Below are positions 1,078 through 23,602 of a stretch of 23,914 nucleotides of DNA, piece after piece. A model generated the notes under the pieces. That model had not been told where the DNA came from and ran no database searches. It saw only the letters and a program-made list of their open reading frames with translations. The stretch is from Baffinella frigidus (lineage: Eukaryota; Cryptophyceae; Cryptomonadales; Baffinellaceae), in contig MU646308.1 of assembly GCA_026770585.1 (NCBI GenBank), forward strand, positions 507,102 through 531,015, written 5' to 3'. Numbering within the stretch: the first letter of the stretch is position 1; every line of letters starts with the position of its first letter. The translations under genes were made by a program, and so were the position numbers.

Positions 1078-1276
1078 AGGGTTGACATGGCGGGCGTGTT
1101 GGTATCAATAACGGTCTGTTTGTCTGGGTGGTCTTTATATCCATCTACCAATCAATTAATCTATTCATCTATCTATCTATCTATATATCTACCGTTGTCT
1201 GACCTCTTCAGGGAGTCATCCTCTCGGTGCGTGTGGCGCTTCCAGAAAGATGCGGTCCCAGGCGCGCTAAGGCCCA

Positions 1277-1300
1277 GAGCTATGCCAAATGGCATAGCTC
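1277..1300. other. Perfect short hairpin
   Basis: GAGCTATGCCA, 2-base loop, TGGCATAGCTC. Confidence 0.7.
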
Positions 1301-1468
1301 ACGTTTCTGAGGTGGGCTCGTTTCGCAAGGCTCATAAACTTTTGTATCACTCAACTCAAGGCTCAAGGGCCTCATTTAGGACCTTTATCGAGAGTAATAA
1401 AGAAGAAGAAGGGAAGGGCCCACCGCGCAGTCCCAGGAGAGCTATTGTGTACCAACACGCTACTGACG

Positions 1469-1761
1469 CTAGGGCCCACCAACAATGCATGCCAATGACG
1501 CTAGGGTCTCCCAACACTGCATGCTAACAAAAATTCCTGCAGGAATTGTGGCTCGACCCATGACTGCGTGGGACCCGGTGTGGACCTCGCTGGTCGTAGG
1601 AAGGACGCTAGGAACACGCAAGGCAGTCACGACCGACCGTCTGGCTTCGGCGTCCGCGTGACCGGTCACGCGGGCGTTCACGAGCCTGCCGGCGGGGCTG
1701 TTCCACGGGGTTCTGTCTGACCTTTTCGGGGAGCCATCCTCTCCGTGCGCGTGGTGCTTCC
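1469..1761 (-). CDS. Gene A exon 16, tentative terminal exon
   Basis: Begins after TCTCTCTAG with GG, the phase needed after exon 15. It stays open for 96 codons to TAG at 1471-1469. It starts [15 protein letters not shown], homologous to exon 15, then continues through [20 protein letters not shown]. It could instead be a donor-side shard of exon 15 whose donor was lost (CAGACAG|AACC) and that happens to stay open. Codon pattern is not decisive. A further copy at 739-885 also stays open to a TGA. Confidence 0.3.
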
Positions 1762-2108
1762 CTAGAGAGATGCGGTCCTAGGAGAGCTAATGTGTACCAA
1801 CACTGCATGCTAACAACAACTCCTGCAGGAATTGTGGCTCGAAAAATAACGGGGTTGTGTCTGGCCAGATCTTGTGGAGATGAAATAATTAATACCTTTG
1901 TTGAGATGGAAGGGTGCCTCCCCGCATGCGGGGAGGCACCCTCGGGGTGCGTCTGGATAGTCTATCTATCCATCTATCTATCTATCTATCTATCTATCTA
2001 CCGTTGTCTGGTCAGTTCCTCCCCGCATGCGGGGAGGCACCCTCGGGGTGCGTCTGGATAGTCTATCTATCTATCTATCTATCTATCTATTCATCTTTCT
2101 ATCTATCA

Positions 2109-2141
<33 letters not shown>

Positions 2142-2142
2142 C

Positions 2143-2180
<38 letters not shown>

Positions 2181-5100
2181 GTCTATCTACCTATCTACCT
2201 ATCTATCTATCTATCTATCTATCTACCGTTGTCTGGTCTCTTCGGGAAGGCACCCTCGCGGTGCGTGTGGCGCTTCCATAGAGAGATGCGGTCCTGGGCG
2301 CGCTAGGGTCTCCCAACACTGTATTAATCCTAACGACGCTAGGGTCTACGAACACTGTGTGCTTGTGTCATGTGGATCGCTAAGGTCTACACCATCTGTA
2401 TCTGCTAATAACAACTCCCTGACGGGGTTGTGTCGGACCTTTTTGTGGGGCCGTCTTCGCGGTGTTTGCGGTGCATGTCTGTTTGTTTGGATGGTCTATT
2501 TATCTATCTATCTATCAATCTATCAATCTATCAATCTATCTATCTATCTTTCTACCGTTGTCTGACCTTTTGGTGGAGCCGTCTTCGCGGTGTTTGCGGT
2601 GCATGTCTGTTTGTTTGGATGGTCTATTTATCTATCTATCTATCAATCTATCAATCTATCAATCTATCTATCTATCTTTCTACCGTTGTCTGACCTTTTG
2701 GTGGAGCCGTCTTCGCGGTGTTTGCGGTGCTTGTGCGCCTTCGGCACGTTGCTGATCGGCGGCTGCGCGAGAGCGAGGATGAGCGTTCAGGCAATGCGGG
2801 TTTAAGGTTTAGGGTTGTTGGTTTCGGGTTTATGACTTATTGTTTACGGTTTATGGTTTATGCTTCATGGTTTATAGTTCATGGTTTAGGGTTTAGAGTC
2901 TAGGGTGTAAGGCTTCGGCACGTTGCTGATCGGCATCTGCGCGAGAGGGGTTAAGGTTAATAGCAATACGCCTTCCCTCAATCTAATCTCCATAAAAGTA
3001 TTCATTAATTGCTCTTGGGCAACGAAAATTGCTACACGATCTGCTCATAAAAGTAATAGTAAAGCATTTGTGTAGTAAATTTCGTTGCGCCAAAAGCAAT
3101 TAATTAGTACCTTTGTGGAGATGAAATCCCGGCCGAGGACATCACTGGTCTCTGCGCGGGCGACATCCCGAGGCGGTCTAGGGTTTGGGGTTTGGGGTTT
3201 AGGGTTTATGGTTTACGGTTTAGGGGTTAGGGGTTAGGGGTTAGGGGTTAGGGGTTAGGGGTTAGGGGTTAGGGGGTAGGGGTTAGGGGGTAGGGGTTAG
3301 GGGTTAGAGGTTAGGGGTTAGGGGTTAGGGGTCAGGGGTTACGTGTGTACCGATCGGTGGCTGCAACAGCGCGGAAGATTAGGTAGGGTTTGCTGGACTG
3401 GAGTACGCCTGCACGCTGAATGGGATAGAGCGCTTGTGGGAAAACTTGGCCGATTTCAACGAGATTTTTTTTCAGAATTTGTGCCAGAATCGTTTAGATG
3501 GACCGGTTTCATGTCACGTCCTGGTACAAAATCTCTGAATTTCTGAAAAAAAATCTCGTTGAAATCGGCCAAGTTTTCCCACAAGCTCTCTAGAGGCGCT
3601 GACAACACAGCCACACGCACAGCGTTTTCTGACCGTGCACCTACCCCTCGATTTCGCTATCTGAAACTGCGAGGCCACACAGCGGGCTACCAAGGGATTT
3701 TCGGGCGCTGAGAGCCCGAGTTTCCGTTACCTTATCCGTAGCAACCCCCCTATGTCCTTACGGGTTGCCTACCGTAGAATCCTAGGTCTTATTGCGTAGG
3801 GGTCATTCACAATCCCTTCGAAGTCCGCTGTGTGGTGCGAGAGGCCGAGAGGCCGAGAGAGAAAACACCTAAATTTCGGAGCAAAACCAGCCACGTACGA
3901 CAGTTGACTAATCAAAGGGGTTCCTTGTGGCCACTTAAGGGAGATGTACGATAGTTGACCAATAAAAGGGGCCGCTGGTACCAACTCTCCCTGATTAGTC
4001 ATCGCCCTGTTACAAAACCTGCCCAGATTAGTCAACAGGTATGTTCATAGGCTAACGCCCTGAAAATCGGGTAGTTAAGCCTACGGTATTGCCTACAGTA
4101 GGCCGTAGGGCCTACGGGGGGTCCTATGAAACATAGGTCCTAGGAGCCCTACGGCCTACCGTAGGCAATACCGTAGGCCTAACTACCCGTTTTTCAGGAC
4201 GTTAACCTATTAAAGTAACTCTCGGTACAAACCAGGACGATGGCTAATCCGGGGAGGGTCAGTACCAGGAGGAAGCCCTGCGATTAGTCAACACATTTTA
4301 GTCGATTAGTCAACAAAAGTGTGATTAGTCAACACTTTTTTGTCTACACGTGCGCGAGTCTCGGCACGCACCAGGAGATTCATCTCGAAACATAACTGAA
4401 TCAGTTCCCTAATTGGCGTTTTCATTTAATTAGGAGGCCTATTTAAATTTACTATGCCCTAACTAATTTCTCCTATTCAACCTCCTATTGAAAAGGAACT
4501 GATTCAGTTATCTTCCGAGATGAATATGGTAACAGCTACTCGTACTTGTAGGTGCTCCTGGTACTAACTTTCATTGGTGCTACTCATGTTGGTACCCAGC
4601 TACAAGTACGAGTAGATGCGCTCGCGAACCCCTAGCTCTGTCCCACTTGATTTGGGCTCCTCATCAATTCGCCCCCCCCCCCCATTTCCAAGGTGGATTT
4701 TGCCCCGCCCCCAGGAAATTCACATGCGAAATGGGGGCGGGGGCGAATTAATGAGGAGCCCAAATCCAAGTGGGACAGAGCTAGGACACCTCGATGCTGT
4801 GGTCGAAAACTGTCAGGGGTGTGAGCGGTACGCACCACCACGCCAGAGGGCTCGAAACATCCACTTTTGACATCTTTCAGGGGAAATCCCCTGAATACTT
4901 AAGTCAACGACGCCATATCTGGCGTGGATAAGGCGTCAGTTTCCCTCGAGCCCTCTGGCGGAAACTGTGAGGCTCGCCACTCGGAACACTGAGGAGAACG
5001 TTGCTGAAGTCAATTATTGACTCCTTTCTTAGGAAACACGCCAAAAGTCAGCAATTGTTGGGCACGTTATCCCCGGATAGCCGGGGGAGGTGTGCTCCGT

Positions 5101-7048
5101 AGCCTCCCGAGCGGGCGGTACCGCCCACACCTCACCGAACCAAGAAACCCTGAGATCGTTTAGTCAACCTGAGATCGATTAGTCAACAGGTTCACCTCCA
5201 AAAACAAGAGCTCCAAAAACAAGAATTCCAACATCCGTAGCAAGAGGCAGTGCCAGGGCGATGGCCAATCCGGGGAGGGTTACTACCAGAAACCCTGAGA
5301 TTGATCAGTCAACAGGTGATTAGTCAACATTTAGGACCTGTATCGAGAGTAATAAAGAAGAAGAAGATAAGTCAACATTGATTAGTCAAAATTTATTAGT
5401 CAACGCGGAATCTCGGTACGCACCAGGACGTGGTATCCGTGCGCCTCCGGATGGTCACGCCGGTGTTCGTTGAAGCGCTCCAGCGTCTGAAAACGCGCGG
5501 TTTCGAGATTTTAGTACAATTTAGAACGCAATAGGTACCTGTCGCGTCCGATTGGTACCGGATACCAACCTGTCGCGTCCGCAAAAAACGCGCGTTTTCG
5601 AGGTTATACAATGCTAATAAAACGCACACCCGCGTGTCGGACACACTCCGATCATCAGAAATCGTGCGTTTTCGTGAGGTCACGTCCGGAATCGGCACGT
5701 TAGGTCTGTCGTGCACACTCCGTTCGTGCGGAATCGCGCGGTTTCGAGGTCATACAATGCTAATAAACACAGCGGACTACAAAGGGATCTCGTGCATAAC
5801 CCCAAGTGAATACGCCCGGCAGAACTGTGCGGAATGATCCCCAAAAGAGGCTCAGAGAACCCAACCCTAAACCCTAAACCAGAGCACAAAGGGGTTAGGG
5901 GGGACGCGCGTCAGGGCGGAACGAACCTGCTTTTTACTTTTTATTTTATTTTATTTTTAATTTCTATTTTTTATTTTTGGTTCTGGGGACACGTGGGTTT
6001 GAGGGTGGGAGGGGGGCGCACGTCCGGATGGGGGGTTTAGGGGTTGGGGTCTAGGGTTAAGGGTTTAGGGTTTAGGGTTTAGGGTTTAGGGTTTCAGGGT
6101 TAGGGGTTGAGGGTTTAGGGGTTAGGGGTTTAAGGCTTAGGGTTTAGGGGTTAGGGGTTTAGGGTTTAGGGGTTAGGGGTTAGGGTTAAGGGTTTAGGGG
6201 TTACGTCAGGGTGGTCGACCCAGCTGAAGGCTCTTAGGGCTTAGGGTCCATATTTTGTTGGGTTGGGTTTGAACATAAGGTTTCAGGGTTTGGATGTGGG
6301 GTTTAGGGGTTATTCAGGGGTAAGGCGTTACGTCAGGGTGGTCGACCCAGCTGAAGCCCGATGAATTGGACGCGACTGCAAAGCGGTCGAGCGGCGTGTA
6401 TCTGGTATTTAGGGTTTGTGGTTCAGGGTTTGGGTCCTGACCAATGGCCTACCGTAGGATTGTATGGATTATTTGCTAGTGGGTTATTCATGATTGCTTA
6501 TGGGTTATTCACAATCCCGTATACGGCGTCCAAGCCCGAGGGATCGAAAGTCGAGCGGCGTGTACCTGGTGTTTGTTTTTTGTTGTTTTTTGTTTTTTGT
6601 TTTTTGTTTGGAGTTTGGGGTTTGGAGATTGGGGTTTGGGGGTGAGGGTTTAGTGTTTGGTGTTTGGTGTCTCAGGGGTTATGGTGTAGGGTGTAGGGTG
6701 TAGGGTGTATGGTACGGGGTATAGGATGTAGGGTGTAGGGTGTAGGGTGTAGGGTAGGGTTCAGGGTGAAGGGTTTAGGGTAGGGTTCAGGGTGTAGGGT
6801 TCAGGGTAGGGTTCAGGGTGTATGGTGTAGTGTGTAGTGTGTAGGGTGTATGGTGTAGGGCGTAGGGTGTAGGGTGTAGGGTGTAGGGTAGGGTTGAGGG
6901 TGTAGGGTGTAGTGTAGGGTGCAGGGTGTAGGGGCGAGTACCCGTTCGAACCCCGCGCTTCCAGGATTCAGGATTCGGGTACAAGATTTCGGGTGTAAGG
7001 TTCCGGGTCTAGAGTTTCGGGTGTAGGGTTTAGGGGGGGGATACCAGT

Positions 7049-7104
<56 letters not shown>

Positions 7105-8744
7105 GAGACCCGCGCTTTAGCGACCGCCCCGGTTGGTAACGTGACCAAATTTGAATCAGAAAAGCCTTAAAGTTGATTGCCACGTGGTAAGTTGACTTCT
7201 GATGAAAGGTCCGTAGTCCACCGTGTGGTACGGGCGGAACAACGCTACCCCTGTACAGGGGTACCTCGGTCATAAGAAATCGCACCCCCCATAGGACCAC
7301 CATAGGGCCCTAGGCATAGGCCTACTGTAGGGTCCTAGGGAGGAGCAGTTTCTTATGACCACACGGTGGACTACGTAGCCTATGGTAGGGTCCTAGGGAG
7401 GGGCAGTTTCTTATGACCACACGTTGGACTACGGACCTTTCATCAGAAGTCAACTTACCACGAGGCAATCAACTTAGTCCACCGTGTGGTCATAAGAAAG
7501 GTAGGGGGGGCTACCCGTTGGAGTCCCGCGATTTCGCGATTGCCCCCGACGCGAGCAGCGTGCACACCGCCCTGGATACAGCGTTTAGGGTTTAGGGGAA
7601 AATAATCATAACAATAAAAATAATAATAAAATAATAATATGCCTTATTCGAAAAAAGAGGCGATTTTCGTAGTGGGCGCCCGTGCGAAATCGTCCCCGTC
7701 AACTATGACCCCTGTTTCGGGGGTATGCGTTAGGGTATTAGTTAGGTTATGAGTTAGGGTATGCACTAGGGTATGAGTTGAGAGGAGAGGGGTTTTGCGA
7801 CCGCCCCCGGCTGCGAGCAGCCACACAGCGGGCTTCGAAAGGATTTTCGGGCTTTGAGAGCCCGAGTTTCCGTTACCTTATCCGTAGGAACCCCCCCTAT
7901 GTCCCTACGGATTGCCTACCGTAGGGTCCTAGGTCTTATCGCTTAAGGGTTATTCAAAATCCCTTGAAAGCCCGCTGTGTGGCGTGCACACCACCCTGGA
8001 TACAGCGTTTAGGTTGATGGATTATGGCTTATGGTTTATGGTTTATGGATTATGGATTATGGTTCATGGTTTATGGTTTATGGTTTATGGTTTAAGATTT
8101 ATGGGTTATGGTATATGGTTTATGGTATATGGTATATGGTTTATGGTATATGGTATATGGTATATGGTATATGGTATATGGTATGTGGAATATGGTATAT
8201 GGTATATGGTATATGGTATATGGTATATGGTATACGGTATATGAATTATGGTTAAGGGTTGAGGGTTGAGGGTTTACGGAGACAATTTCGTACGGGTGAG
8301 AATTGGAGTAGTTTGCGCACCGTTCTCGCTGGGGGTGGGAAGACTCGGCGGCGAAGTGCAGTCTCTCTCTCTCTCTCCCTCCCTCTCTCTCTCTCTCCCT
8401 CTCTCTCCCTCTCTCCCTCACTCTCCCCCCCTCTCTCTCCCTCCCTCTCTCTCTCTCCCCCTCTCTCTCTCAGCCCCGCTCTCTCTCTCCCTCTCTCTCT
8501 CTCTCTCTGGGAGCAGTTTGCGCACCGTTCTCGCTGGGGGTGGGAAGACTCGGCGGCGAAGTGCAGCGGCGTCTTCTTCAGGACCCCTGCGCGCAGTTAT
8601 GAGCCTCAGTCACACAGGTCTCTCTCTCTCTCTCTCCCCCTCTCTCTCTCTCTCTCCCTCTCTCCAGGTGGCGCAACGTTTCAGGACCCCTGCGCGCAGT
8701 TATCAGCCTCAGTCACACAGGTCTCTCTCTCCCTCCCTCTCTCC

Positions 8745-8783
<39 letters not shown>

Positions 8784-11700
8784 GACAGGTGGCGAGCCTC
8801 GTTTCAGGACCCCTGCGCACCACGACGGTTGACTAATCAAAGGGGTGCCTGGTACTAACCCCCCCGGATGAGTCATCTCCCTGGTACAAAACCTGCCCAT
8901 ACCACACGGTGGGCTTCGAGGGTTTCGATAGGCCTGGATTCCAGGGGGGTACGTGACCAAATTGCACCAGAAAATCTCTCAAGTCAATTGCATCAAGGCA
9001 AGTTGACTTTTGATGAAAGGTTCGTAGTCCACCGTGTGGATTAGTCAACATGCAAGAGGTACGCGAGGTGCAGCGGCGTCCGTTTCAGGACTCCTGCGCG
9101 CGAGAGGGAGGGGTTGACTTTCATGTCAAGTTGACTTTGCTGTCATGTTGACTTTGCTGTCAAGTTGACTTTACTTTGCTGTGAAACAGCTTACTGTAAA
9201 GCAACTGCAGCAGAGCGGGGGGCTGCGCGGGGGAGAGGGAGGGGTTGACTTTTCCGTCAAGTTGACTTTCCTGTGAAACAGATTGCCCACACGGTGGAAT
9301 AAACATGGATTTCGCAAATAACCCGCAAGCGAATAATCCATACACTCCTGCGGTAGTCCGCTTCAGGGCCCATGCGCGCGCGCGAGGGTTTGACCTTGCT
9401 GTCACGTTGACTTTGCTGTGAAGCAGATTTGCCCACACGGAGGGAGAAGGGGCTTTATTTTGCTGTGAATCAGCTTACTTCATTCATTCAGTTCACTGCC
9501 AGGGCGAAATTTTTGTATTAGTCAACTCAAGGCAAAAATCGAAAATCAAAGTACACCGATGGTGTTTCTCGTTTCTAAAGTTGACAGATTTGTGGGGGTG
9601 TTGACTTTTACAAAATATCCGAATTCGCAGTGGGCTGTAAAGCAATACATGCAGAGAGGGGAGTGGGGGGGAGACTGTCGAGAGCTAACCCCCCTAAACC
9701 CTGATCCCTAAACCCCAAGCCCCAAACCACAACCCCTAAAACCCAAACCATAAAAACTCAGACCCAGATCTCTCAACCCTGGACCATAGGGAACCATACG
9801 CCCTTAACCGTCAACCCTGAGGGAGCGCACCGCCCACGTGCTGATTCGTGTCCGCCTTCTTCTCCAGGAGCAAAGAGAGCATTGGAGAGGAGCCTTTCGT
9901 AGCCCGAAAGGCATCCACGTGGATGATGTCGAGATCTAACCCCCCTTAACCTTAATTCCTAAACCACAAATCCCAAACCATAAGAACTTGGACCGTAATC
10001 CCTGAACCCTTGACCCAAAACCATACCGCCAGCGTGCTGATTCGGGTCCGCCTTATTCTCCAGTAGCAGCGAGAGCATCGGCGGAAAGCCTTTCGAAGCA
10101 GCAACATGAAGAATGTCGAGGTCTCCAGCTTCGTCTGAGAACCTACCACGCCAGAGTGTTCGAGGGGGTCAATTCTTAAAAAACGTCTCAGGATACGGTT
10201 GACAACTTTTGAGAACCACTTCCTTGAGGGGGAATTGACTTTTGGCGACTCCTTCCAAGACTCTGGCGTGGAACGGTGTGTGTGTGGGGGGTGATTTCAT
10301 TGGCGAATTCCAGCCGCTTTTGGCGGAGCGAAAAGAATGAAACAACGGCAAAAGATGACGATTCTGGTGCTAAATTGTCATCTTTTGGCATAGTTTCACA
10401 GAAGCCCATGAAGGCAGCCACATTAATGTGCGTAGCCACTCAATTCAAACCGCCTTTTATGCTATCGTAAGGGTGGTGTCTCTCTTATTTTGCTATATTA
10501 GCTATATTAGCTGCGACATAGCTTTAATATAGGAGAAAACCCATCCCAAGATAGCAAAAACACGGTATAAATTGAGAGGCCTCGCCCATGAACGTGGATG
10601 ATGCCAAGATCCCTGGCGTCATCTGAGACTCCAAACCCCAAAGGTTTGGAGTTTGAGGTTTTAGCGAACTCCAGCAGGTTCAGCTAGAGTGGTTTTCAGA
10701 TATGTCCGCCACGCGAACATAATAGAACAAAAGTGAATCGTCAACTTTTCGAAAAGTTGACGATGCTGGTTCTGAATCGTCGACTGTTGGCGGAGGAGGT
10801 TAGGCGAATTCCAGCGGAACCCCTAAACCCGAAGACCCTACCCCCCTAGCAACTCACGCTGCAGGCAGCGACGTGGATAATGTCGAGGTCGCCGTCAACC
10901 CCAACCCCAAATCTCTAATCCCCAAACCGGGTTCTGGCTTAGTACTAGAATCTGTTAACCTTTGGCATTGCTTCATTCTTTTCGCAGCCAACAGATTAAT
11001 AGGGTAACGGCCTGAAAATGGGGTAGTTAGGCCTACGGCATTGCCTAGGACCTCCTACCGTAGGCCGAGACTTTTTGGTACTAGGATCCCTCGGCCGACG
11101 GTAGAAGGTCCTAGGCAATGCCGTATGCCTGACTACCCCCTTTTCAGACCGTTAGCCTATGAAGATGCGAAACCCGCTTCACCAACCCTCCAGGGTCCAC
11201 ACAGTGGACCACGGACCTTTCATCAAAAGTCAACTGACCCTGTGGGCAGTTGACTTTAAGGATCGTCTAATGCAAATTTGGTCACGATACCGCTAAATCT
11301 AGGGTCTCGAAACCCTTGAAGCCCACCGTGTTAATCTCCATAGAAGAATTAATTAATTGCTTTTGGCGCAACGAAATTTACTACACAACTGTTTTACTAT
11401 TACTTTTATGAGCAAATCGTGTAGTAATTTTCGTTGCCCGAAAGCAATTAATTAATACTTGTATGGCGATTAGTGTGGTTTGTCACCGTCCTTGAACACA
11501 CCCTGTCCGGTTCATTCAACAGCCACGGCTGGGCCCTACACCCTACACCCTACACCCTAAACCCTAAACCCTAAACCCTTAACCAACAGGCGTGTTCCCA
11601 ACTACTACTCCGTCCCAGTTCAGTCACCCCCCGGTAACCCTAAACCCTCAACCCTAAGCCCGGAACCATAACTCTCATTATCCTGAGGATAATATGGGAA

Positions 11701-14700
11701 CCCAGTCACAGCAAAAATGCTGGCAAAATCTTCTCGCTAGCAGTGCACTCCCACTCGAGAATGCTAGAGGATCCTATTTATATGTGTGGTTGTAAACATG
11801 TGTACCAGGATAAGGTGTTCCAACCTCGTGACTAGCCAATACATGGCTAGTTACGTGACCAATCAACGAAAGTTACTACACAAATGCCCACTTTTAAAAG
11901 CACATTGGTTTTAAATAGGCCCCTGTAGGATTCTCGTGTGGTCACCCGCGGATTCGCAAGTCCTCCCTCTTCCCAGTACAAATAACCCCCGAAAACTAAC
12001 CCCTACACCGGGTTTCAGGTTTGGGGTTTCGGGTGTGGAGTGCAGCAATAACCCGCGGATTCCGTTAGCGTTGATGAGCGTGCGCATGAATAGGGTAACG
12101 GCCTGAAAAGGGGGTAGTTAGGCCTGCGGTATTGCCTAGGACCTCCTACCGTAGGCCGAGATTTTTTGGTCCTAGGATCCCTCGGCCTACGGTAGGAGGT
12201 CCTAGGCAATACCGTATGCCTGACTACCCCATTTTCAGGCCGTTAGCCTATGAGCCTGCCCCACAGATCCTCCCTCTTCCGCCCGGTACAAAAGGTGCCC
12301 TATTCAGCCAACTAGAACCTACGGGGTTGGGGGGCTGGGGTTTAAATCAACCCTAAGTGGGGGTTCCTGTTTAGCCAACTAAACCCCCAACCACGCACCC
12401 GCGGATCCCGTTAGCCTCGATGAGCGCGCACACACCCCGCAGGTCCTCCTTCACAGTCAAACATTTCGCTAACGCCAAGCCCCATATCACCCAATGCAAA
12501 CAGTGGACTTTTGAGTAGATAAGAGGGCACGCACCCGCGGATTCCGTTAGCCCCTTAAGTCCTCCCTTAGCGAGGCGATTTTGCTCAAGTCGATTCCTAT
12601 ATGGTCCCAACACAAACTGTCGACTTTTCGCGGGCGCAAATCGGCACTCACCCGCGGATTCCGTTAGCCTCGATGAGCGTGCGCATGCCCCTGAGGTCCT
12701 CTTTCTGCACAGCCTCTTGCATTGCTAGGTACACCACCTGTAGGGTTTCGGGGTGGGGGTTTAGGGGTTGGGGGTTGGGGGTTGGGGGTTGGGGTTTAGG
12801 TTTTAGGTTTTAGGTTTTAGGTTTTAGGGTTTAGGGTTTAGGGATTAGTCTTGACAGCCTCCTGCTTTGCTAGGTACACCACCTGCTCCTAGTGTAGGGT
12901 TTGTGGTTTAGGGTTTAGGGTGTGGGGTTTGGAGTGTAGGGTGTAGGTTTTGGGGGTTGTGATTTGGGGGTTCGTATTTCGTGTTTCGGGTTCCGGGTTT
13001 CGGGGTTTGGGTTCCGGGCTTCGTGATTCAGTTTTCGGGCCGTGAGTTTCGGGTTTCGTGTTTCGTATTTTGGGCTTCGGGTGTAGAGTTTCGGGTTTCG
13101 GGTTTCAGATTGCGGGTCTCGGGTCTCGGGTCTCGGGATTCGGGATTCGGATGTCGGGTTCCAGGGTCCGGGTTTCAGGTTTGGGGTTTGGGGTTTGGGG
13201 TTTGGGGTNNNNNNNNNNNNNNNNNNNNNNNNNNNNNNNNNNNNNNNNNNNNNNNNNNNNNNNNNNNNNNNNNNNNNNNNNNNNNNNNNNNNNNNNNNNN
13301 NNNNNNNNNNNNNNNNNNNNNNNNNNNNNNNNNNNNNNNNNNNNNNNNNNNNNNNNNNNNNNNNNNNNNNNNNNNNNNNNNNNNNNNNNNNNNNNNNNNN
13401 NNNNNNNNNNNNNNNNNNNNNNNNNNNNNNNNNNNNNNNNNNNNNNNNNNNNNNNNNNNNNNNNNNNNNNNNNNNNNNNNNNNNNNNNNNNNNNNNNNNN
13501 NNNNNNNNNNNNNNNNNNNNNNNNNNNNNNNNNNNNNNNNNNNNNNNNNNNNNNNNNNNNNNNNNNNNNNNNNNNNNNNNNNNNNNNNNNNNNNNNNNNN
13601 NNNNNNNNNNNNNNNNNNNNNNNNNNNNNNNNNNNNNNNNNNNNNNNNNNNNNNNNNNNNNNNNNNNNNNNNNNNNNNNNNNNNNNNNNNNNNNNNNNNN
13701 NNNNNNNNNNNNNNNNNNNNNNNNNNNNNNNNNNNNNNNNNNNNNNNNNNNNNNNNNNNNNTGGGGGTTGGGGGTTTGGGGTTTGGGGTTTCAGGTTTCA
13801 GGTTTGGGGTTTGGGGTTTGGGGGTTCGACCTGCTTCTTCGAGAGGGGCGCGGGGTCGTCCAGCCGCCTTTGCCGCACGCCGAAGCACCCCTGATGTTTG
13901 GGTTAAGGTTCACGTTTCCTCTGATGAAGCAACCCTGGCAAAGACATCACTTTTCTGAAAAAAAACGCACTGTTAGGTTCTAGGGTTGAGATGTGTGGAG
14001 GGTTTAGAGTTTAGGGTGACAGTTTAGGGTTTAAGGTGAGGGTTTAGGGTTTAGGGATTGTGAGGGGCGGGGGGTAGTCTAGCCGTCTTTGCCGCACGCC
14101 GAAACACCCCTGATGTTTGGGTCGATGTTTACGTTTCCTCTGATGAGGCACCCACACAGCGGGCTACGAAGGGATTTTCGGGCGCTGAGAGCCCGAGTTT
14201 CCGATATCTTATCCGTAGGAACCCCCCTATGTCCCTACGGGTTGCCTACCGTAGGGTCCTAGGTCTTGTCGCTATTCGAAATCCCTTCGAAGTCCGCTGT
14301 GTGGCCTGGCAAAGACATCACTTTCCTGAGAGAAAAAAACGCACGGTTAGAGTTTAGCGCTGAGAGCTGTGGATTGGGGGTGAGGGCTTAGGGTTGAGGG
14401 TGCGAGAGGGGCGCGGGGTCGGTTGGGCGCCTTTGCCGCACGCCGAAACACCCCTCGGTTTTGGGTTCAAGGTTTAGGGGTTGGGGGTGGGAGTTCAGGG
14501 AGTGGAGCTTAGCGGCTAGAGTTGAGAGATTGGGGGTTTAGGGTTGGGGTTTAGGGGGTTCAGGGTTTAGGGTTTAGGGTTTAGGATTTAGGGTTTAGGG
14601 TTTAGGGTTTAGGGTTCAAGGTTCAGGGTGTGCAGGGTTTAGGGTTCAGGGTTTGTAGGTTTTAGGGTTTAGGGTGTAGGGTTTAGGGTGTAGGGTTTAG

Positions 14701-17700
14701 GGTGTAGGGTGTAGGGTGTAGGGTGTAGGGTGTATGAGGTAGGGGGTAGGGAATGTACCTGGATGAACTCGTCGAAGTCAACGCTGCCCGACCCATGCAT
14801 GTCATAGGGTGTGGGATTTGTAGGGTTCAGGGTGCAGGGTTCGAGTTTCAGGGTGTGCAGGGTTTAGGGTTCAGGGTTTGTAGGTTTTAGGTTTTAGGGT
14901 TTAGGGTGTAGGGTGTAGGGTGTAGGATGTAGGGTGTAGGGTGTAGGGTGTAGAGCGTAGGGTTTAGGTTTCAGAGTTTGTAGGTTTTAGGGTTTAGGGG
15001 GTAGGGGGTAGGTTTAGGGTTTAGGGGGTAGGGTGTGTACCTGGATGAACTCGTCGAAGTCAACGCTTCCCGACCCATCCATGTCAATCGCCTGCATTGG
15101 GGGTAAGGGTTTAGGGTTTATAGTTTATGGTTTGGGGTTTGGGGTTTGGGGTTCGGGGTTTGGGGTTTGGGGTTTGGAGTTTGGGGTTTAGCGTTTGGGG
15201 TTTTGGGTTAGGGTTTAGGGTTAAGTCAATTGCCTGCAGCGAGGGGGGGCAGCGAAGGGTTTAGGTGTCGGGGTTTAGGGTTTAGGGTTCCGGGAACAAT
15301 CCTAACTCGGTTCGAGGTTGGGGTTCATTTCATAGGAAAACCTATTTAATTTTAAACATTGGATTTCAATACAGATTACTACACGTTGTTTTAATCCTTA
15401 CTAGTAAAGATCGTTGTGTGGAGTAAATGTCATGACCGAAACAGTTAAAATTAAATCAGTTTTCCTATGATGTTGGGGCGGTCCAGACCTAGACTAGCAT
15501 CTTGGCTGCGGAGGCGGATAGATCCCTACCCCCAAACACCACTCTCTCTCTCTGCCCTAAACCAGTCTATTTGGGCTCACCACTTCAGTGCGCCCGGGCT
15601 CTCTGCCACTCCAAAGGTAACAAATTCGTACCGCGAACCCAGCGTGTCAACTTGAGAGTAGTCGGGGAACCCGAGTGAGGCAGAGCTACAAGGTGATTGG
15701 GGCGGTCCAGACCTCGACCTGCATCTTGGCGGCTTGAGGGTCTAGGCTTGAGGGTCTAGGGCCCAAAAGTTGAACCCTAATCCGCGCACACGTGGACGAT
15801 GCTGGTGCTAAGCCGTCTACTTCTGGCATTTCTCAGTCTGGGGTTCGTGGCCGAGATATGAAAATCGTTGTGATCAGTGCGGGAGGCACGCGGTCCAGAC
15901 CTGGAACAAGCCTTAAAGTTGATTGTCTTTGGGCAAGTTGACTTTTGATGAAAGGTTCGTAGTCCACCGTGTGGATTGGGGCGGTCTCATCGCGTCCCTC
16001 CATAGAATCTATCTCAGAAACTGCCCATCCAAACGATTTCTGGTACAAATCAAAAGAGTTTGAAAACTCTCAATGCACATAATGGCTCCAAGCCCCACCC
16101 AAATCTGAGATAGAATCTATGAAGGGGCCCGATGAGGTTGAGACCTAGACCAGCATCTTGGCGGCGGACGCGCAGAGGATCCGCCCCAGCGCTTTGGGGG
16201 TTCACCCTACGGTATTGTATATCACAGCACCCTACGGAACACCGTAACTAGGATGACGCCGGAATCAAGGCGTCCGCCCTTCCACACAGAGGGCTACGAA
16301 GGGATTTTCGGGCGCTCAGTGCCCGAGTTTCCGTTACCTGATCCGTAGGAAACCCCCTATGCCCCTACGGGTTGCCTACCGTAGGGTCCTAGGTCTTATC
16401 GCTCAGGGGTTATTCAAAATCCCTTCGAAGTCCGCTGTGTGGTTGGGAAGGCGGTCGAGACCTGGACCAGCATCTTGGCGGCGGACGCGGAGAGGATCCG
16501 CCCCAGCGCTTTCATAACCTGAGGGTGCGGGAAATTCAACGTTACCTTAAGTTAACGGAGGTTCCACTTTTGCTTTGAGACGTTCCACTCTCGACTCTTG
16601 TCTCGGTGGGCAGCGCTCTTCGCAGAGAGACATTATCAAGCTCTGCCTGAGTTTTATTCTGGCTCGTCCTAAAGGCTTTCTATTCGCCCTTTTGTACTGG
16701 ATTTCTGCTCTTAAATACTTTTAAGGACGAGCCAGAATAAAACTCAGACAGAGCTAGATTGTTTTCCGGTGGCGGAGAGGATCTGCCCCAGCGCTTTCAT
16801 AACCTGTTGTTAGGGGAAAGGCAGAGCAACATTATTTTCCGGTGGCGGATAGATCCCGCCCCAGCGCTGTCATAACCTGTGGACACCCTTGTGATGTCAG
16901 ACTGATTTTTTTTTGCGAAACGGTCAAACCTTTGACCTTCAAATGTCTGGCCCTCTGGTGGCTGTGGCGGAGAGGATCCGATCCGCCCCAGCGTTTTCAT
17001 CACCTGCAGCCAGCCTTCCACACAGCGGGCTACGAAGGGATTTTCGGGCGCTGAGAGCCCGAGTTTCCGTTACCTTATGCGGCGAGACATTATTTTCCGG
17101 GAAAGAGGGAGAAGCCGTGTTTATTTCCAACTCGCCGTGTATGTTACATATGTCAGTCAAACTCCAACCGACTCCAACGCGAAAAAGTATCGAACGGAGC
17201 ACCTAGCCACGCGAGGCTATCCATGCGAACAGAATAAATGTCGATTTTGAATTTTGTGGTAAGAAATGGTCACGTGCTACACGCAAAGCGTGTAGCCTGT
17301 CTTTCTATTCGACCAAATATATAAAATTACCACACAAACGCTTACAATCGACATTTATTAAGTTCGCATGGATAGCCTCGTGTGGAGAAGATACTTGTGG
17401 CGAGCCTAGATTGACTTACGGCAGAGGAGGGATCGACTTAATGCAGAGCCGGGATCGACTTTAGACGTTGTCAACTTATGGAATGAGGTGGAAGGGACCT
17501 GGGCCAGCTCCTTTGTCTCGATCTGGCCGTCGCCTTCGTAGTCCTTCTTGTCAAACTCGTGCTTGTACCTGCCAGAGGGAAATGACTTAGCGGGGGGAGA
17601 TGACTTAAAAAAACGAGTGAAAGAGTTAACTTAAACCTGAGAGGGGAGATGACCCAGAACGTGATAGGGAGAGTTGACTGAAACCTGCGATCCAGCGGAG

Positions 17701-20700
17701 GACTCTCGAACAATCTAAGCTATGAAGACTACCAAACCAGTCCCACTTTAATAGGAGCTAGAGCAGGAGGAACTACATAGCGGCGCCTAACATTCACTCA
17801 GGCCCGCCAAATTAAAAAACTGCCTGCTTCAGTGATTATTGGGACTGATTCAGCGATCTTCCGGAATGGAATCGGACCTGATTCAGCGTTTCGTGTTTCG
17901 TGTTTCGTGGTTCGGGTTCCGGACCTCGCGACATCGCGCGGGGCCCCGATCGGGGAAGTCCGAAGTTGGCCACCACACAATGGGAAAATGGGAAAATGGG
18001 AGCCATTTTGTCTACTTTTTAGAAATTCGTGGCAATAAATTTCTCAAAAGTTGACAAAATGACTCGGGGTTCGGCCGAACCCCGAACCCTGAAACCAGGT
18101 CCGATTCCAGACGGAACCGCGCCGTTTCGTGTCATCCTACGGGTGGGTTTTGCTATCTTGGCCATGACACGAAAACCTCGTAGCATAGGGTGTTGGGTTT
18201 CGGAACTTTGTCAGTAAACCTCTCTCTCTCTCTCTCTCTCGGGTGTAGGTGGTTCCGGGTTTCTGGTATCGGGTTTCGGGTTTCTGGTATCGGGTTTCGG
18301 GTTTCTGGTATCGGGTTTCGGGTTTCTGGTATCGGGTTTCGGGTTTCTGGTATCAGGTTTCGGGTTTCTGGTATCGGGTTTCGGGTTTCTGGTATCGGGT
18401 TTCGGGTTTCTGGTATCGGGTTTCGGGTTTCTGGTATCGGGTTTCGGGTTTCTGGTATCGGGTTTCGGGTGTCGGGCTTCAGACCTGACGATGTCGCGCG
18501 GAGCCACGATCGGGAATTCCGGACAATCCGGCGGAGGCTTCGGGTTTCGAGTTTCGGGTTTCGACTTTCGTGTTTCGTTGAATTCGCCCGAGTGCCAGTA
18601 AAAACATCTCTCTCTCTCTCTAGGGTGTAGGGTGTGGGGTTTCGGACCTCGCAATATCGCGTGGAGCCCCGATCGGGAATTCCGGCCGATCCGGGGGTGG
18701 CTTCCGCGGGGAGTCTCCCAATCTGGGGTTAGGGTTCAGGGTTTAGGGTTTATGGTTTAGGGTTTAAGACTTAGGGTTTAGGGCTTATGGTTTAGGGTTT
18801 AGGGCTTAGGGTTTAGGGTTTAGGGTTTAGGGTTTATGGGTTTGGGTTTGGGGTTGCGGTCGGGGGGAGGCTTTCTCCCAATCTGGCGAAGCGCGGGTGG
18901 GGCACAGGTTATCGGCTCAAGGTCTTTGGATCCATAACCTGTGGTTTCATTGAAACCAACATGCCCACGATGCACAACCCCCCCCCAGGCTTTGTTGCAC
19001 TCGAGGGCCTAGAAACGCCCTTGGACCCACTACTGAAAACCCACAGCCCCCCCTGTGACGGATTTCGTCACAAAACGGCTCCAATTTCCATCCCTCAGGA
19101 CTGACCAACTTTCAAATTAAAATTCCTTAATGTTTTTTTACTACCCAAACTTCCTTTTAAACCCAGATTCGTTTTTAAACAAATAGATGGACAGGGTGGG
19201 CTAAGGACGTGCAGAAGCATAACCTGTGCCTCATCTGCGAGAGGCTAGTCCTTCTGCTGTAGGCTACGTGAACAGTGCACATGACCTCTCTCTAGGTCCT
19301 GTTCAGGCCTCTCTCTTGGTCCTGCTCAGGCACAGCCTCGGTGGGGGTGCATACACGGCGGGCGTGTTGGGAGTAATTAAGGTCTCACTCAAAGGGTTTG
19401 GGGGTTAGGGTTCAGGGTTCAGGGTTTAGGGATTAGAGATAAGGGTTTAGTTTCAGGGCTGGCCTTAGGCGCCCAAGGGGACAGTCGTTGATCGATACCC
19501 CCCCGAGTTTGCAGCCCAGGGTTTAGGGTGTAGGACTGTGACTATAGGCACTCAAGGAAAAAATCGTTCAAGAGTTCACGCTGGTACACAAAAAAATCCG
19601 GTTTAGGGATCAGGGTCGAGGGTCCAGGGTGTAGGGCGGACCTAATCCGGGGACATGTTTAATTTAACAGAAAATGATTCCCTATTTGTTCATAGGAGTT
19701 GGACGAAGGTTAATTAGGGCCCTAAGTGAATTTAATTGGGGCCAGAATCCGGTCTGATAGGCCATTTTCTTTTAAATTAAACATGTTCCCGGATGAGACC
19801 GCAGACGCCCAAGGGGGCGGCCGTTGATCAAATCCCCTCAACCCCAAACCCTAAACCGTGCACGCTGATACAAAACACTCCCCGTTTCAAGTTTAGGGTG
19901 CAGGGCAGACCTTAGGCGCCCCAGGGGGCAGTCGTTGATCGAGACCCCCCCGAGGCCGTGCACGTTCCCGAGCCCCCGCATTGCGCCGGAGCGGTCGGGC
20001 TGCGATCGTAAATCCTGCGCGAGTTTTGGGGTTTAGGGTTTAGGGTGCAGGGTGCAGGGGCTCGGTGCAGAAAGCCACGCCTGTTGACTGACTTGAGGCT
20101 ACTGTGGGACACAATGGTTTAGTCACCGTCGTGGTGCAAGTTAGTGTGCGGGGCGACTCAATTTAAACCGCCTTTTTTGCTATCTTAAGGGTGGTGACTC
20201 TCTTATTTTGCTAGATTAGCTTCGACACAGCTTTAATATATACGAAAAACCATCCCAAGATAGCAAAAACACGGTTTAAATCGAGTCGTCCCGCTCATGA
20301 AAGTGAGGAAACTAGGTTGATACCGGAACTAGGTTGTCCACTCGCACTCATCTCGCTCCACCCGTGGGGCGGGTGGGCGTGCATGCCCTAGCTCTGCCGC
20401 ACTCCGGTTGGCCGACTATTCTCAAGTTGGCATGCTGGGGTTGCGGTACAAATCCGTCAACTTTGGAGCGGGAAAGCGCCCCGGGCTCACCAGATTGACG
20501 AGCCCAAATAGACGGAGACAGAGGTAGATACCTGCCATTCCTGGTCGACGTGCCCAAACTGATGCCCGGTGGCGCCCTTGTACTCCCAGTACTGCCTGCT
20601 CCCGCCATGCTCTCCCGTTAGTGCCAGCCGTACAGCCTCTCCTCCGATACGCCAACCGGCCCTTAGTCAGCCCAAATGTTGTGATAGCATGTCTCTCAAT

Positions 20701-20796: not shown

Positions 20797-21070
20797 TCCG
20801 CCCGCAGCAACAAAAACTTCTTGTCGCCCTCGCCCGACTCAACGAGTCGCCGTTAGTTCGGGCCCGCCTCAGGGCCTAATCAAACGGAGCCTGGATATTG
20901 AGCCAGTTCCCTCAGGGGAATGGGCGAAAACGAACGGCTGCCCTCAGGAAACGCCTACTCATCCAACCTCGATTTGATCTACTTCAGAGAGGGGTGAAAA
21001 AAAGAAACTCACCGTTGTTCGCAGCTGGAGTGGGCGAACGGCAACGCCCCCATCGTCCATCAGAGCGACA
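20797..21070. promoter_or_regulatory. Divergent promoter / 5' leader region between genes A and B
   Basis: 274 bp separate the two candidate start codons. I see no clear TATA box. A short hairpin (CGACTC, loop AAC, GAGTCG) lies at 20835-20849. On the minus strand a strong donor (ACG|GTGAGTTTC, junction at 21013/21012) suggests a leader or upstream coding exon of gene A that would overlap the 5' end of gene B. Confidence 0.45.
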
Positions 21071-21385
21071 ATGTCCGGGTCGCGCGCAGCCAAGGAGCTC
21101 CGGAAGCAGAATTCCGGGCGATCGAGCGACCCCATCTGCCTGGAGGATGACGACGCCATCCTCGCGCGGGTGCTTTACGAGAGTGAGCTGGAGGCGGGGG
21201 TGGGTGCCGCTGACGAGGAGGCGCTCGCAGCAGAGCTTTCTATGATGGATCGTCCTGCAGCAACAACGGCAGGAGGAAGGGGAGCCGGCGCGGGAGGGAG
21301 AGCGGAGGGGCGCAGTGGGAACGATGCGGCAGGGAGGAGGGGCGTGGGGCGAAAGCAGGACCGGGAGTCCAGCGAGGAGATTGTG
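21071..21385 (+). CDS. Gene B exon 1: UIM and SUMO-interaction-like motifs
   Basis: ATG at 21071. 105 codons to a proposed donor ATTGTG|GTGGAC. Near residue 20 lies DPICLEDDD, a hydrophobic core followed by acidics as in SUMO-interacting motifs. It runs into DDAILARVLYESELE, which fits the UIM pattern L-x-x-(A/V)-L-x-x-S between acidic residues. A Gly/Arg/Ala-rich linker follows, then SSEEIV. The end is chosen because SSEEIV joined to DQLERVLQLS of the next visible exon makes a good acidic UIM start in phase 0. Such motifs occur in ubiquitin receptors and deubiquitinases; which one this is cannot be told. Confidence 0.62.
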
Positions 21386-21560
21386 GTGGACAGGAACTCC
21401 CCCAACCGTCTTGAGCATCAGAGCAACATTCGTTTGTGCGCACACCATCGGCTTGGTGGACAGGAACGCCCCCATCCGTCTTGGGTGGACGGGAACGCCC
21501 CCATCCGTGAGCATCAGAGCAGCACCCCTTTGTGCGCACACCATCGGCTTTGTGCGTGAA
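21386..21560. repeat. Tandem shards at the start of gene B intron 1
   Basis: Three diverged units share GAACGCCCCCATCCGT and CATCAGAGCA. The same motif lies just before the gene B start codon (21039-21070). On the minus strand the units read (V/A)ALM...GGV(P/A)V with third-position changes. On the plus strand they read NAPI...HQS. Which strand is coding is unresolved. Confidence 0.6.
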
Positions 21561-21639
21561 GGCACACTGACCGGGGCACGCGGAATCTCCACCACGCCGT
21601 TGTCATCCTCCCCGTCCTGAACCATCCCCGCCCTTCCCC

Positions 21640-21900
21640 GCGCGCAGTCCTCCTCCGCGCCGCACCGACGTCGCCGGAGCAGCGCGCGGCACGGCCAGGG
21701 CGCGCGGCCGCGACGATCCGCGCGCCGGCGGGCCGCGCGACGATCCGCGCGCCGGTGGGGCGGGGGCAGGGGTGGGGGCACGTGGCGCGCCGCCAGCCAG
21801 GGCGGGAGGCGCGGGCGCGGGGGCGCGTGTGGGAGGAGGGGCGGGGGCGCGGGATATGGGTGAAATGTCGGAAGAGGTGTGTGGGGGGTTGTGGGCGGGG
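21640..21900. other. Very GC-rich intron tract
   Basis: Dense CpG sequence with a direct repeat of CGCGACGATCCGCGCGCCGG at about 21708 and 21735. Open on the minus strand only because GC-rich DNA has few stops. No gene supported. Confidence 0.6.
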
Positions 21901-21901
21901 T

Positions 21902-22151
21902 CTAGCTGTGTCTCAGTCTATTTGTGCTCACCAATTTTCTGGGCCCGGGGCTCTTTCCCGCCCAAAAGTTGTACCGCACACCCAGCTTGTTAGTTTGAGA
22001 ATAGTCGGTCAACCCGAGTGAGGCAGAGCTAGCACCTGGCGAGCTCAGAGCTAGAACCCCGCTCAGAAGTTGATTTGCCGGGTTTGTGTACAAATTTGTC
22101 AAATTTCGATGTGAATACGATCAGTCAACCCGACTGAGGCAGAGCCAGACA
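21902..22151 (-). mobile_element. MITE family N, copies 3 and 4
   Basis: 21902-22032 complete (ends GGCAGAGCTAG); 22045-22151 truncated relative in the same orientation (ends GGCAGAGCCAG). Confidence 0.82.
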
Positions 22152-22179
22152 GTATCCGATCGCGTAGGTCAGGGATACG

Positions 22180-22290
22180 TTTTTCCACCAGGAAACGTTT
22201 ATCATATAGGAACATGGTCCACATTTCTTCTGCGATCGACTTTACAAGTGATTTTATCGCGGCCGAACGTTTCTCAGGTGGAAACAATTG
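22180..22290. mobile_element. Short foldback element
   Basis: TTTTTCCACCAGGAAACGTT paired with AACGTTTCTCAGGTGGAAAC. Confidence 0.7.
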
Positions 22291-22429
22291 ACTTTCGATT
22301 GCGGGTTTTCCGTTTCTCGGGAATTAACGGCATTTGTACGAGATGTCGCCTGAAATCAGGCAGCCTGCGGCGCAAAAAAACAGATAAACACACATGTAAA
22401 GTCAATCACACAAGAAAATGATTCCCATT

Positions 22430-23065
22430 CAACTATCCTAAACCCTGAAACCTGAGCCCTAAACCCTGAACCCTGAACCGCAAACCACAAACCCCAAAAC
22501 CCAAACCACAAACCACAAACCCCAAACCCCAAACCCTAACCACGGAACAGCCCCCCAACCCCAAGTCACAAATCACAAACCCGAAACCCGAAACCCGGAA
22601 CCCCCAAAATAAAATAAACCCGAACACCCCAACCGTACACCCCAACGCAGGACAAACTCGAGCGCGCGCTGCAGCTGTCGGCCCAAACTCTGAACCCTAA
22701 ACCACAAACATCAAACCCTAGAACCTAAATCCTAAACCCCAAACCCCAAACCCCAAACCACAAACCACAAACCACAAACCCTGAAACCCAAAACCTAACG
22801 CAGGACCAACTGGAGCGTGCGCTGCCCCCCAACCCCAAACCCTAAATCACAAACCCGAAACCCGAAACCCGGAACCCCCAAAATAAAAATAAACCCTAAC
22901 ACTCAAACCCTACACCCTAACGCAGGACCTACTGGAGCGTGCGCTGCAGCTGTCGGCCCAAACTTCAAACTCCAAACCCTACACCACAAACCTCGAAACG
23001 CCCAAAATAAAAAACCGAAACGCCCAAAATAAAAAAATAAAAACCCCTACACCCAAACCCTCCTC
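22430..23065. repeat. CCCTAAA/CCCCAAA/CCCGAAA arrays in gene B intron
   Basis: C-rich on the plus strand, the gene B sense strand, interleaved with three UIM-exon shards. One segment beginning AACCCGAAACCCGAAACCCG is duplicated at 22578 and 22852. Confidence 0.93.
22651..22957 (+). pseudogene. Three acceptor-side shards of gene B UIM exon
   Basis: 22651-22682 (DKLERALQLSA), 22804-22825 (DQLERAL) and 22926-22957 (DLLERALQLSA), each directly after ACGCAG and then dissolving into CCCAAACCC-type repeat. Confidence 0.88.
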
Positions 23066-23078
23066 CACCCGAACGCAG

Positions 23079-23174
23079 GACCAGCTCGAGCGTGTGCTGC
23101 AGCTGTCGGCGATGGCGGCGGGCGTGGGGGGTGAAGACACGATCGACCTCGACGCCGACGAGCAGACCCGCAAG
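23079..23174 (+). CDS. Gene B exon 2 (or later): UIM
   Basis: 96 nt, 32 codons, acceptor CCCGAACGCAG, donor CGCAAG|GTTCCC. Encodes DQLERVLQLSAMAAG (UIM core L-E-R-V-L-Q-L-S), then GEDTIDLDADE, an acidic hydrophobic patch like a SUMO-interacting motif, then QTRK. Three acceptor-side shards precede it at 22651, 22804 and 22926. In these the core reads LERAL, and LERALQLS in the two longer ones, even closer to the UIM consensus. Confidence 0.78.
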
Positions 23175-23234
23175 GTTCCCCTCTAGAGCGCTGTGCAGAG
23201 AATTTGGCACCGAAAATAATAATTAAATGGTAGA

Positions 23235-23372
23235 CTAGCTCCTCCTCACCCGCGTTGACCGACTATTCTCAAGTTGACATGCTGAGTGCGTGGTACAAAT
23301 TCCGCAACTTTTGAGCGGGAAAGAGCCCGGGCTCACCAGATTGGTGAGACCAAATAGACTGCGGCAGAGGTG
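23235..23372 (+). mobile_element. MITE family N, copy 5
   Basis: GACCGACTATTCTCAAGTTG and GAGCCCGGGCTCACCAGATT cores shared with copy 2. Confidence 0.82.
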
Positions 23373-23574
23373 CCAGCCTCAACCAGCCAGCCTCGACGCT
23401 TTGCTTCCGAGGCGCAGCAGCTACTAAGCTGTAGAACACTCGTGTGTCCTCGGGAGTTTCGTGGCTGCAACCGTCGAGGATTCACGACTTAGGGTTTACG
23501 GTTTAGAGCCTTGGGTTCAGGATGCACGGTATAGGGTTTGGGTTTGGAGCCTGATCCGTACCTGCGCGTAGCAG

Positions 23575-23602
23575 GCGACCAACCTCTCGCTGGGAGGGGA
23601 CG
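23575..23602 (+). pseudogene. Acceptor-side shard of gene B Gly-rich exon
   Basis: CGTAGCAG followed by ATNLSLGGD, homologous to AIKLSMGGD of the exon at 23665. Confidence 0.75.

Follow-up and report, generated by a model that had tools for sequence, protein, structure and literature searches.

Partial exon copies of fixed polarity in introns of Baffinella frigidus, probably the exon-anchored part of a local duplication process

The window analyzed here is a 23,914-nucleotide stretch of the Baffinella frigidus genome, positions 507102 to 531015 of contig MU646308.1 in assembly GCA_026770585.1 (382,457,362 bases in 1364 contigs). It has a GC content of 52.4% and contains 553 N, the parent assembly being a draft with gaps. 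HSP70 sequences likewise point to Baffinella frigidus or a very close strain: among at least 120 matches listed for an intact HSP70 gene of this genome, the named proteins of highest identity come from cryptophytes (Guillardia theta, 90%), several multi-HSP70 proteins of pig and plants reach higher bit scores at 72 to 76% identity, and one protein without a name is 100% identical. A Baffinella frigidus HSP70 protein aligns to a single contig in 15 stretches (95 to 100% identity in 12, and 93, 90, and 79% in the remainder), with two additional weak stretches at 49 and 35%. The window carries gene A on the minus strand and gene B on the plus strand. Exon boundaries of gene A were set from splice sites and homology; 10 of its exons were searched against ±2.2 kb of flanking DNA at E ≤ 1e−3, and for gene B we searched one exon, the last one read in the window, against its flanks. 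The in-frame join of exons Ea, Eb, and Ec encodes an EF-hand pair (Pfam EF-hand_8, E 4.2e−10), and three other gene A exons encode ankyrin repeats. This homology favors the view that the intact exon copies are the ones that encode protein. The span taken for exon Ed has stops in all three frames; one frame would stay open if an acceptor further downstream, GCCAG, were used. Joining the first exon of gene B to the last gave no match to any Pfam family.

Table 1. Exons of genes A and B and their local direct copies (positions within the window; upstream and downstream refer to the direction of the gene)
Feature	Position	Strand	Identity	Remark
Exon X1	19911..20014	-		Intact, preceded by CAG and followed by GT
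X1 donor-edge copy, downstream	19454..19507	-	91%	Donor is GC
X1 donor-edge copy, downstream	19796..19837	-	79%	
Exon X2	18648..18722	-		
X2 donor-edge copy, downstream	18460..18541	-	82%	
X2 donor-edge copy, downstream	17914..17954	-	88%	
Exon Ea	17499..17568	-		EF-hand 1, 22 residues; no local copies found
Exon Eb	16462..16518	-		19 residues
Eb acceptor-edge copy, upstream	16966..17006	-	83%	
Eb acceptor-edge copy, upstream	16840..16882	-	81%	
Eb acceptor-edge copy, upstream	16767..16819	-	85%	
Eb donor-edge copy, downstream	16136..16195	-	95%	
Eb donor-edge copy, downstream	15701..15733	-	91%	
Eb donor-edge copy, downstream	15477..15521	-	87%	
Exon Ec	15041..15091	-		17 residues
Ec donor-edge copy, downstream	14740..14804	-	94%	
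Exon Ed	13831..13954	-		Acceptor placement uncertain
Ed acceptor-edge copy, upstream	14305..14350	-	89%	
Ed interior copy, upstream	14062..14153	-	88%	
Ed 3'-half copy, upstream	14371..14474	-	76%	Without acceptor or true donor
Exon Ee	12652..12737	-		28 residues
Ee acceptor-edge copy, upstream	12849..12885	-	89%	
Ee donor-edge copy, downstream	12526..12552	-	96%	
Ee donor-edge copy, downstream	12392..12452	-	85%	
Ee donor-edge copy, downstream	12028..12088	-	80%	
Exon Ef	10027..10134	-		Ankyrin repeat
Ef internal copy, upstream	10865..10893	-	83%	
Ef donor-edge copy, downstream	9829..9903	-	83%	
Exon Eg	8526..8586	-		Ankyrin repeat
Eg acceptor-edge copy, upstream	9063..9101	-	87%	
Eg acceptor-edge copy, upstream	8680..8714	-	97%	
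Eg donor-edge copy, downstream	8305..8361	-	98%	
Exon X3	7516..7571	-		Boundaries tentative
X3 acceptor-edge copy, upstream	7982..8013	-	97%	Followed by palindromic insert
X3 donor-edge copy, downstream	6928..6968	-	76%	
Gene B exon	23079..23174	+		Last exon read in window
Gene B acceptor-edge copy, upstream	22638..22682	+	89%	
Gene B acceptor-edge copy, upstream	22794..22825	+	88%	
Gene B acceptor-edge copy, upstream	22909..22957	+	88%	

The 11 exons tested (10 of gene A and 1 of gene B) gave 28 local direct matches, which confirms the original prediction that introns at this locus carry partial copies, here called shards, of the edges of neighboring exons. The predicted sides were found as well, as 11/11 acceptor-edge copies lie upstream of the exon and 14/14 donor-edge copies lie downstream; the remaining matches are two internal copies and one 3'-half copy without a donor, all upstream. 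Gene A alone accounts for 25 matches (14 donor-edge downstream, 8 acceptor-edge upstream, 2 internal upstream, and the 3'-half copy). The number first given, more than 30 copies, is plausible when the few sub-threshold copies seen by eye are included (among them acceptor copies at about 18897, 10617, and 8813 and a donor copy at about 11950; all lie on the predicted side), but 28 were found at the thresholds used. Likewise, the statement that there was no exception holds for every edge copy and has to be qualified for the upstream 3'-half copy of Ed, which our script labeled donor-type and which by eye stops before the AAGAAGCAG/GT junction. The two other Ed matches are parts of one copy interrupted by a palindromic insert. 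Exon Ea had no copy within ±2.2 kb at E ≤ 1e−3, and the gene B exon had none downstream within 700 bp.

The arrangement is not confined to the window. We assembled a genome-wide sample of 85 exon matches from Pfam searches, picked by the match and not by the presence of copies (9/10 TCP1, 30/45 kinesin, 17/17 HSP70, 4/4 myosin, and 25/108 kinase matches). Left out were one TCP1 match at a contig end with its flank missing (L009), 15/45 kinesin matches, and 83/108 kinase matches, and the kinase exons in the sample are biased to short open frames. At least one local direct copy was present at 38/85 exons, a count that still includes three later-dropped loci, and at 34/79 after all drops. With the same three loci included, copies were found at 32/51 exons with a match length of 60 to 150 bp, at 4/17 of 150 to 250 bp, and at 2/17 of the longer ones.

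Five loci were dropped from the sample. L047, a shard that derives from the L040 exon and lies downstream of it, had two upstream donor-type matches and one downstream internal match; L053 and L054 are an inverted HSP70 pair with 2 inverted matches; and L064 and L067 are exons within telomere-like arrays with 3 "full" alignments each. After the drops, the sample contained 35 acceptor-edge copies upstream (18 exons), 29 donor-edge copies downstream (21 exons; 32 minus 3 at L076a, which is telomere-like and suspect), and no reversed edge copy. Donor fragments found upstream as often as downstream would have spoken against the original prediction, and after the drops no donor-edge copy was left upstream. 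The 24 internal direct copies follow the same trend, with 14/14 upstream ones derived from the 5' half of the exon and 8/10 downstream ones from the 3' half; two inverted internal matches also remain. The copies differ from their source exon by a median of ~14%, and the median shift is 227 bp. Hence, exon-edge copies with side polarity extend beyond the window and recur across the genome sample.

The matches are local and direct. With their own flanks as the target, the 79 exons had 89 direct and 6 inverted matches, compared with 6 direct and 9 inverted ones in 237 draws of swapped flanks from other loci, and shuffling 15 of 41 exon-centered loci left 0 direct pairs. Direct orientation and an adjoining source are the features expected of small tandem duplications made by break repair, whereas a single family spread across many genes as whole introns, which is expected of Introners, was not found; the shards match their own exon. 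An assembly artefact might be considered, since the assembly is a draft and the window contains 553 N, but the ~14% median divergence, the further insertions within some copies, and the presence of the pattern on many contigs make this extremely unlikely.

Why are edge copies then restricted to one side of the exon? In a simulation, we accepted only those duplications after which exactly one exon was left intact. When the new copy was placed next to its source, 101 edge copies fell on the right side and 0 on the wrong side, whereas copying to a random nearby site yielded 53 right-sided and 44 wrong-sided ones. Dispersed local copying was rejected, as it predicts reversed copies and none was seen after the drops. 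The strict polarity follows because only two kinds of adjacent duplication leave the exon unharmed, each of which fixes the side of the truncated copy. A duplication running from the upstream intron into the exon would place a truncated acceptor copy ahead of the intact exon, and one running from inside the exon into the downstream intron would place a truncated donor copy after the intact exon; a duplication wholly inside the exon would destroy it and be removed by selection. Polarity can therefore come from geometry and selection for one intact exon, and a special system is not needed.

We hypothesize that short local direct duplication is a widespread process that adds to introns and that the copies are those of its products anchored in an exon, and we consider this reading probable. 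Units of ~25 to 80 bp when recent, mostly 100 to 600 bp apart, would continually be added to introns. The most likely lesion would be a break with long complementary overhangs that is repaired by fill-in and joining, often with filler DNA, and arrays may have been built by subsequent unequal exchange or by further events of this kind. A copy with a single splice site would presumably be ignored, as no exon is defined around it.

The original prediction had also named the duplicated unit as the exon edge plus adjoining intron, and in a strong form exon edges and splice sites would be specifically targeted. The 41 exon-centered loci contain 254 local direct pairs, of which 44 touch the target exon, compared with 29.0 expected under random placement. 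Moreover, the aligned intron part is only 2 to 6 bp long in 22/68 copies, so that homology extends no more than 6 bp past the splice site into the intron, which is short for random breakpoints. Both observations would fit targeting. However, duplications in introns away from exons are almost the same in length, shift, and identity: the 35 exon-anchored and the 213 unanchored pairs show a median length of 54 versus 51 bp, a median shift of 248 versus 206 bp, and a median identity of 86.7 versus 84.8% (Mann-Whitney P = 0.09). Specific targeting is hence very unlikely, and the unit named at the outset is not upheld, as similar duplications also occupy introns away from exons. Duplications cover 11 to 23% of each intron bin out to 1.5 kb and 26% of the exon, and pairs that do not touch the exon cover 6 to 11% within 150 bp and 11 to 19% beyond. 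The non-exon background consists of seven loci, which were picked for a palindromic element and not for exons and in which coverage ranges from 0 to 53%. The exon edge looks to be mostly a visible anchor and not the target, and the modest excess of exon-anchored pairs may arise via the conserved exon copy that is held by selection.

The form of the copies is only partly that of a plain tandem duplication. Among 91 copies (including the 3 suspect ones at L076a), 11 abut, 78 have testable spacers, and 2 lack a flank. Homology beyond the copy was detected in 39/78 spacers at z > 3 and in 32/78 at z > 5; in the other 39/78 z was ≤3. As half of the testable spacers have no homology beyond the copy, many duplications are spaced. 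Of the tandem duplication first proposed, local duplication as the source is supported, and plain tandem duplication is incomplete, as it fits the 39/78 homologous spacers. Tandem arrays with overlapping alignments are present at L030, L041, L045, and L048, and at several loci, such as L088, L065, and L061, an unrelated spacer lies next to a copy of 94 to 98% identity. Recent copies (identity of ≥92%; 14 of the 68 copies positioned relative to a splice site) mostly have a unit of tens of base pairs, as expected for break-repair duplications: 13/14 span 25 to 77 bp and include 2 to 39 bp of intron, and one is a 506-bp unit. The spacers without homology count against the preferred reading of local duplication, to which filler DNA or a second event must be added.

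The copies could instead mark sites where an element, palindromic (MITE-like) or otherwise, inserted with an unusually long target duplication (40 to 75 bp). At L088, a 60-bp direct repeat, 97% identical, surrounds a 116-bp stretch that is matched by three other sampled loci, which jointly cover its full length; by eye it resembles positions 19660 to 19790 of the window. More generally, 16/29 spacers have a full or partial match in other sampled loci (one of these spacers is telomere-like). Against this, the L088 element lacks one end by eye, the contiguous arrays require no inserted element, and 13/29 spacers match no other sampled locus, a result that is weak because only ~300 kb was sampled. 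Element insertion with long target duplications is therefore an unlikely source of the copies, and a single inserted element as their cause was rejected on the 13/29 spacers without a match. Telomere machinery was rejected as a source of spacers, as telomere-like DNA makes up 5.9% of 66 spacers and 10.5% of 641 random intervals. A search of viral contigs for relatives by an element end gave 0 matches.

Upstream and downstream shards might also come from one event, in which a break at one point of the exon is mended by insertion of a copy of the exon and intron ends around it. Consistent with this, the two kinds end within 8 bp of each other in 7/18 exons that have both, for example, at L030 and L048. 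However, permutation expects 3.7 to 4.1 of 18 at this distance (P = 0.04 to 0.07), the P value rises to 0.13 to 0.17 at 10 bp and to 0.47 to 0.58 at 15 bp, and in many exons copies are present on just one side. A shared break point had looked striking in the first 10 exons and was unconvincing in 18, and we consider a common origin of both shards highly improbable.

Small duplications from break repair reportedly were described in rice by Vaughn and Bennetzen in 2014. In mouse cells, 43-bp 3' overhangs are processed by CST/Pol alpha fill-in and end joining into small tandem duplications (PMC8355091). These fill-in duplications are direct, tens of base pairs long, and, according to the same source, abundant in genomes, and the Baffinella copies share direct orientation and size; in contrast to them, the Baffinella copies are often spaced by 100 to 500 bp of other DNA and are dense in introns. 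In the potato RdRp gene, a direct duplication spans an intron-exon boundary, as here; the exon piece of the upstream copy turned intronic, and the acceptor of the downstream copy is used (Ma et al. 2016, PMC4974935). That case is one event that made a new intron, whereas in Baffinella many events apparently lengthened existing introns. Introners are likewise intron-forming DNA, and some families have repeats flanking the insertion (Gozashti et al. 2022, PMC9860276), but there one family occupies many genes, in some cases with target duplications of 3 to 9 bp, whereas shards copy the exon of their own gene. Rogers and Bendich (2025, PMC11782384) also attribute direct repeats near intron ends to the repair of breaks at insertion; those described are 4 to 30 bp long and lie at both borders of one intron, while the shards are mostly longer, lie inside introns, and are polar with respect to side. 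In those parts of the open-licence PMC literature that we drew on, we recognized no description of introns filled with partial exon copies. As read here, the mechanism is ordinary and the extent is unusual.

Since selection keeps one copy fixed, the duplications can be placed and counted against the exon, and the shards are thus a readable fossil record of intron growth. They also illustrate that a strict polarity resembling a special system can arise from simple geometry and selection. The published genome of Baffinella CCMP2293 is reported at 534.5 Mbp, with 41.1% repeats, 53.9% GC, and a BUSCO value of 72.3%, compared with 87.2 Mbp for Guillardia theta (PMC9756366); the word "intron" is absent from the main text of that paper, which gives strain CCMP2045 as conspecific. 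We offer local duplication as one process contributing to the growth of the Baffinella nuclear genome, and shards may help explain why gene finding is difficult in this organism, where the BUSCO value is 72.3%.

What happens to the splice sites that the copies carry? The alignments show the splice dinucleotide intact in 65/67 copies (acceptor AG in 35/37 and donor GT in 30/30), and there is no sign in these copies that decoy splice sites are purged. Three sites, the L036 and L042 acceptors and the L048 donor, had no motif placement and are absent from both the placement and the dinucleotide counts; the L070 donor is in the placement set and absent from the dinucleotide tally. Where the alignment runs on for at least 8 bp, 43/44 dinucleotides are kept, compared with 36.9 expected (P = 0.003, with copies treated as independent). 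These numbers would be consistent with shards being functional decoy or alternative splice sites maintained by selection. However, the copies share ancestry, the splice positions were chosen while viewing the copies, and one L086 copy has GC, so that we give this explanation little credence. The excess may stem from shared ancestry and the choice of positions, or it may be real. If the sites were selectively kept, the one-sided arrays (acceptor-only upstream and donor-only downstream) could be tolerated or used as decoys or stepping stones, and intron growth would be coupled to exon recognition; we consider this quite unlikely. The accuracy of splicing amid many intact one-sided splice sites can now be tested directly. 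The over-kept dinucleotides, together with the exon-anchored excess, the lower coverage near the exon, and the 2- to 6-bp intron parts, count against our preferred explanation by local duplication. GC donors were seen in two copies, the L086 copy, noted by eye, and one of the two X1 copies of the window.

The window holds five copies, one of them partial, of a palindromic element that is about 165 bp long and has CCACACAGCGG-type ends. Two of these elements lie inside exon shards, the partial copies of exon edges with their splice site, and divide them (insertions at about 14154-14304 and 7812-7982), which suggests that the shards tolerate insertion. A second palindromic family is present at dozens of sites across the genome.

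Palindromic elements by family and window position
Element	Position	Remark
~165 bp, CCACACAGCGG-type ends	3667-3836	
~165 bp, CCACACAGCGG-type ends	7811-7982	within exon shard
~165 bp, CCACACAGCGG-type ends	14152-14304	within exon shard
~165 bp, CCACACAGCGG-type ends	16282-16443	
~165 bp, CCACACAGCGG-type ends	17018-17081	partial copy
second family, ~167 bp	3426-3592	

Degenerate arrays of the TTTAGGG/CCCTAAA type cover 12.2% of the window; across the sampled loci the figure is 10.6%. In an HSP70 gene on contig C62 (loci L064 and L067), the introns adjoining two exons consist almost entirely of such arrays.

At 21385-21554, close to the first exon of the plus-strand gene of the window (gene B), three copies of the 19-base stretch GGTGGACRGGAACKCCCCC lie within about 120 bases, and the placement of the donor there is therefore tentative.

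Elsewhere in the genome, on contig C709 of assembly G000, two HSP70 matches (L053 and L054) are inverted relative to each other with about 0.9 kb between them, and share about 95% identity across the roughly 780 bases seen in both. Some kinase matches in the same assembly are surrounded by open frames of 7,968 to 46,653 codons, which are probably runs of N read through rather than genes.
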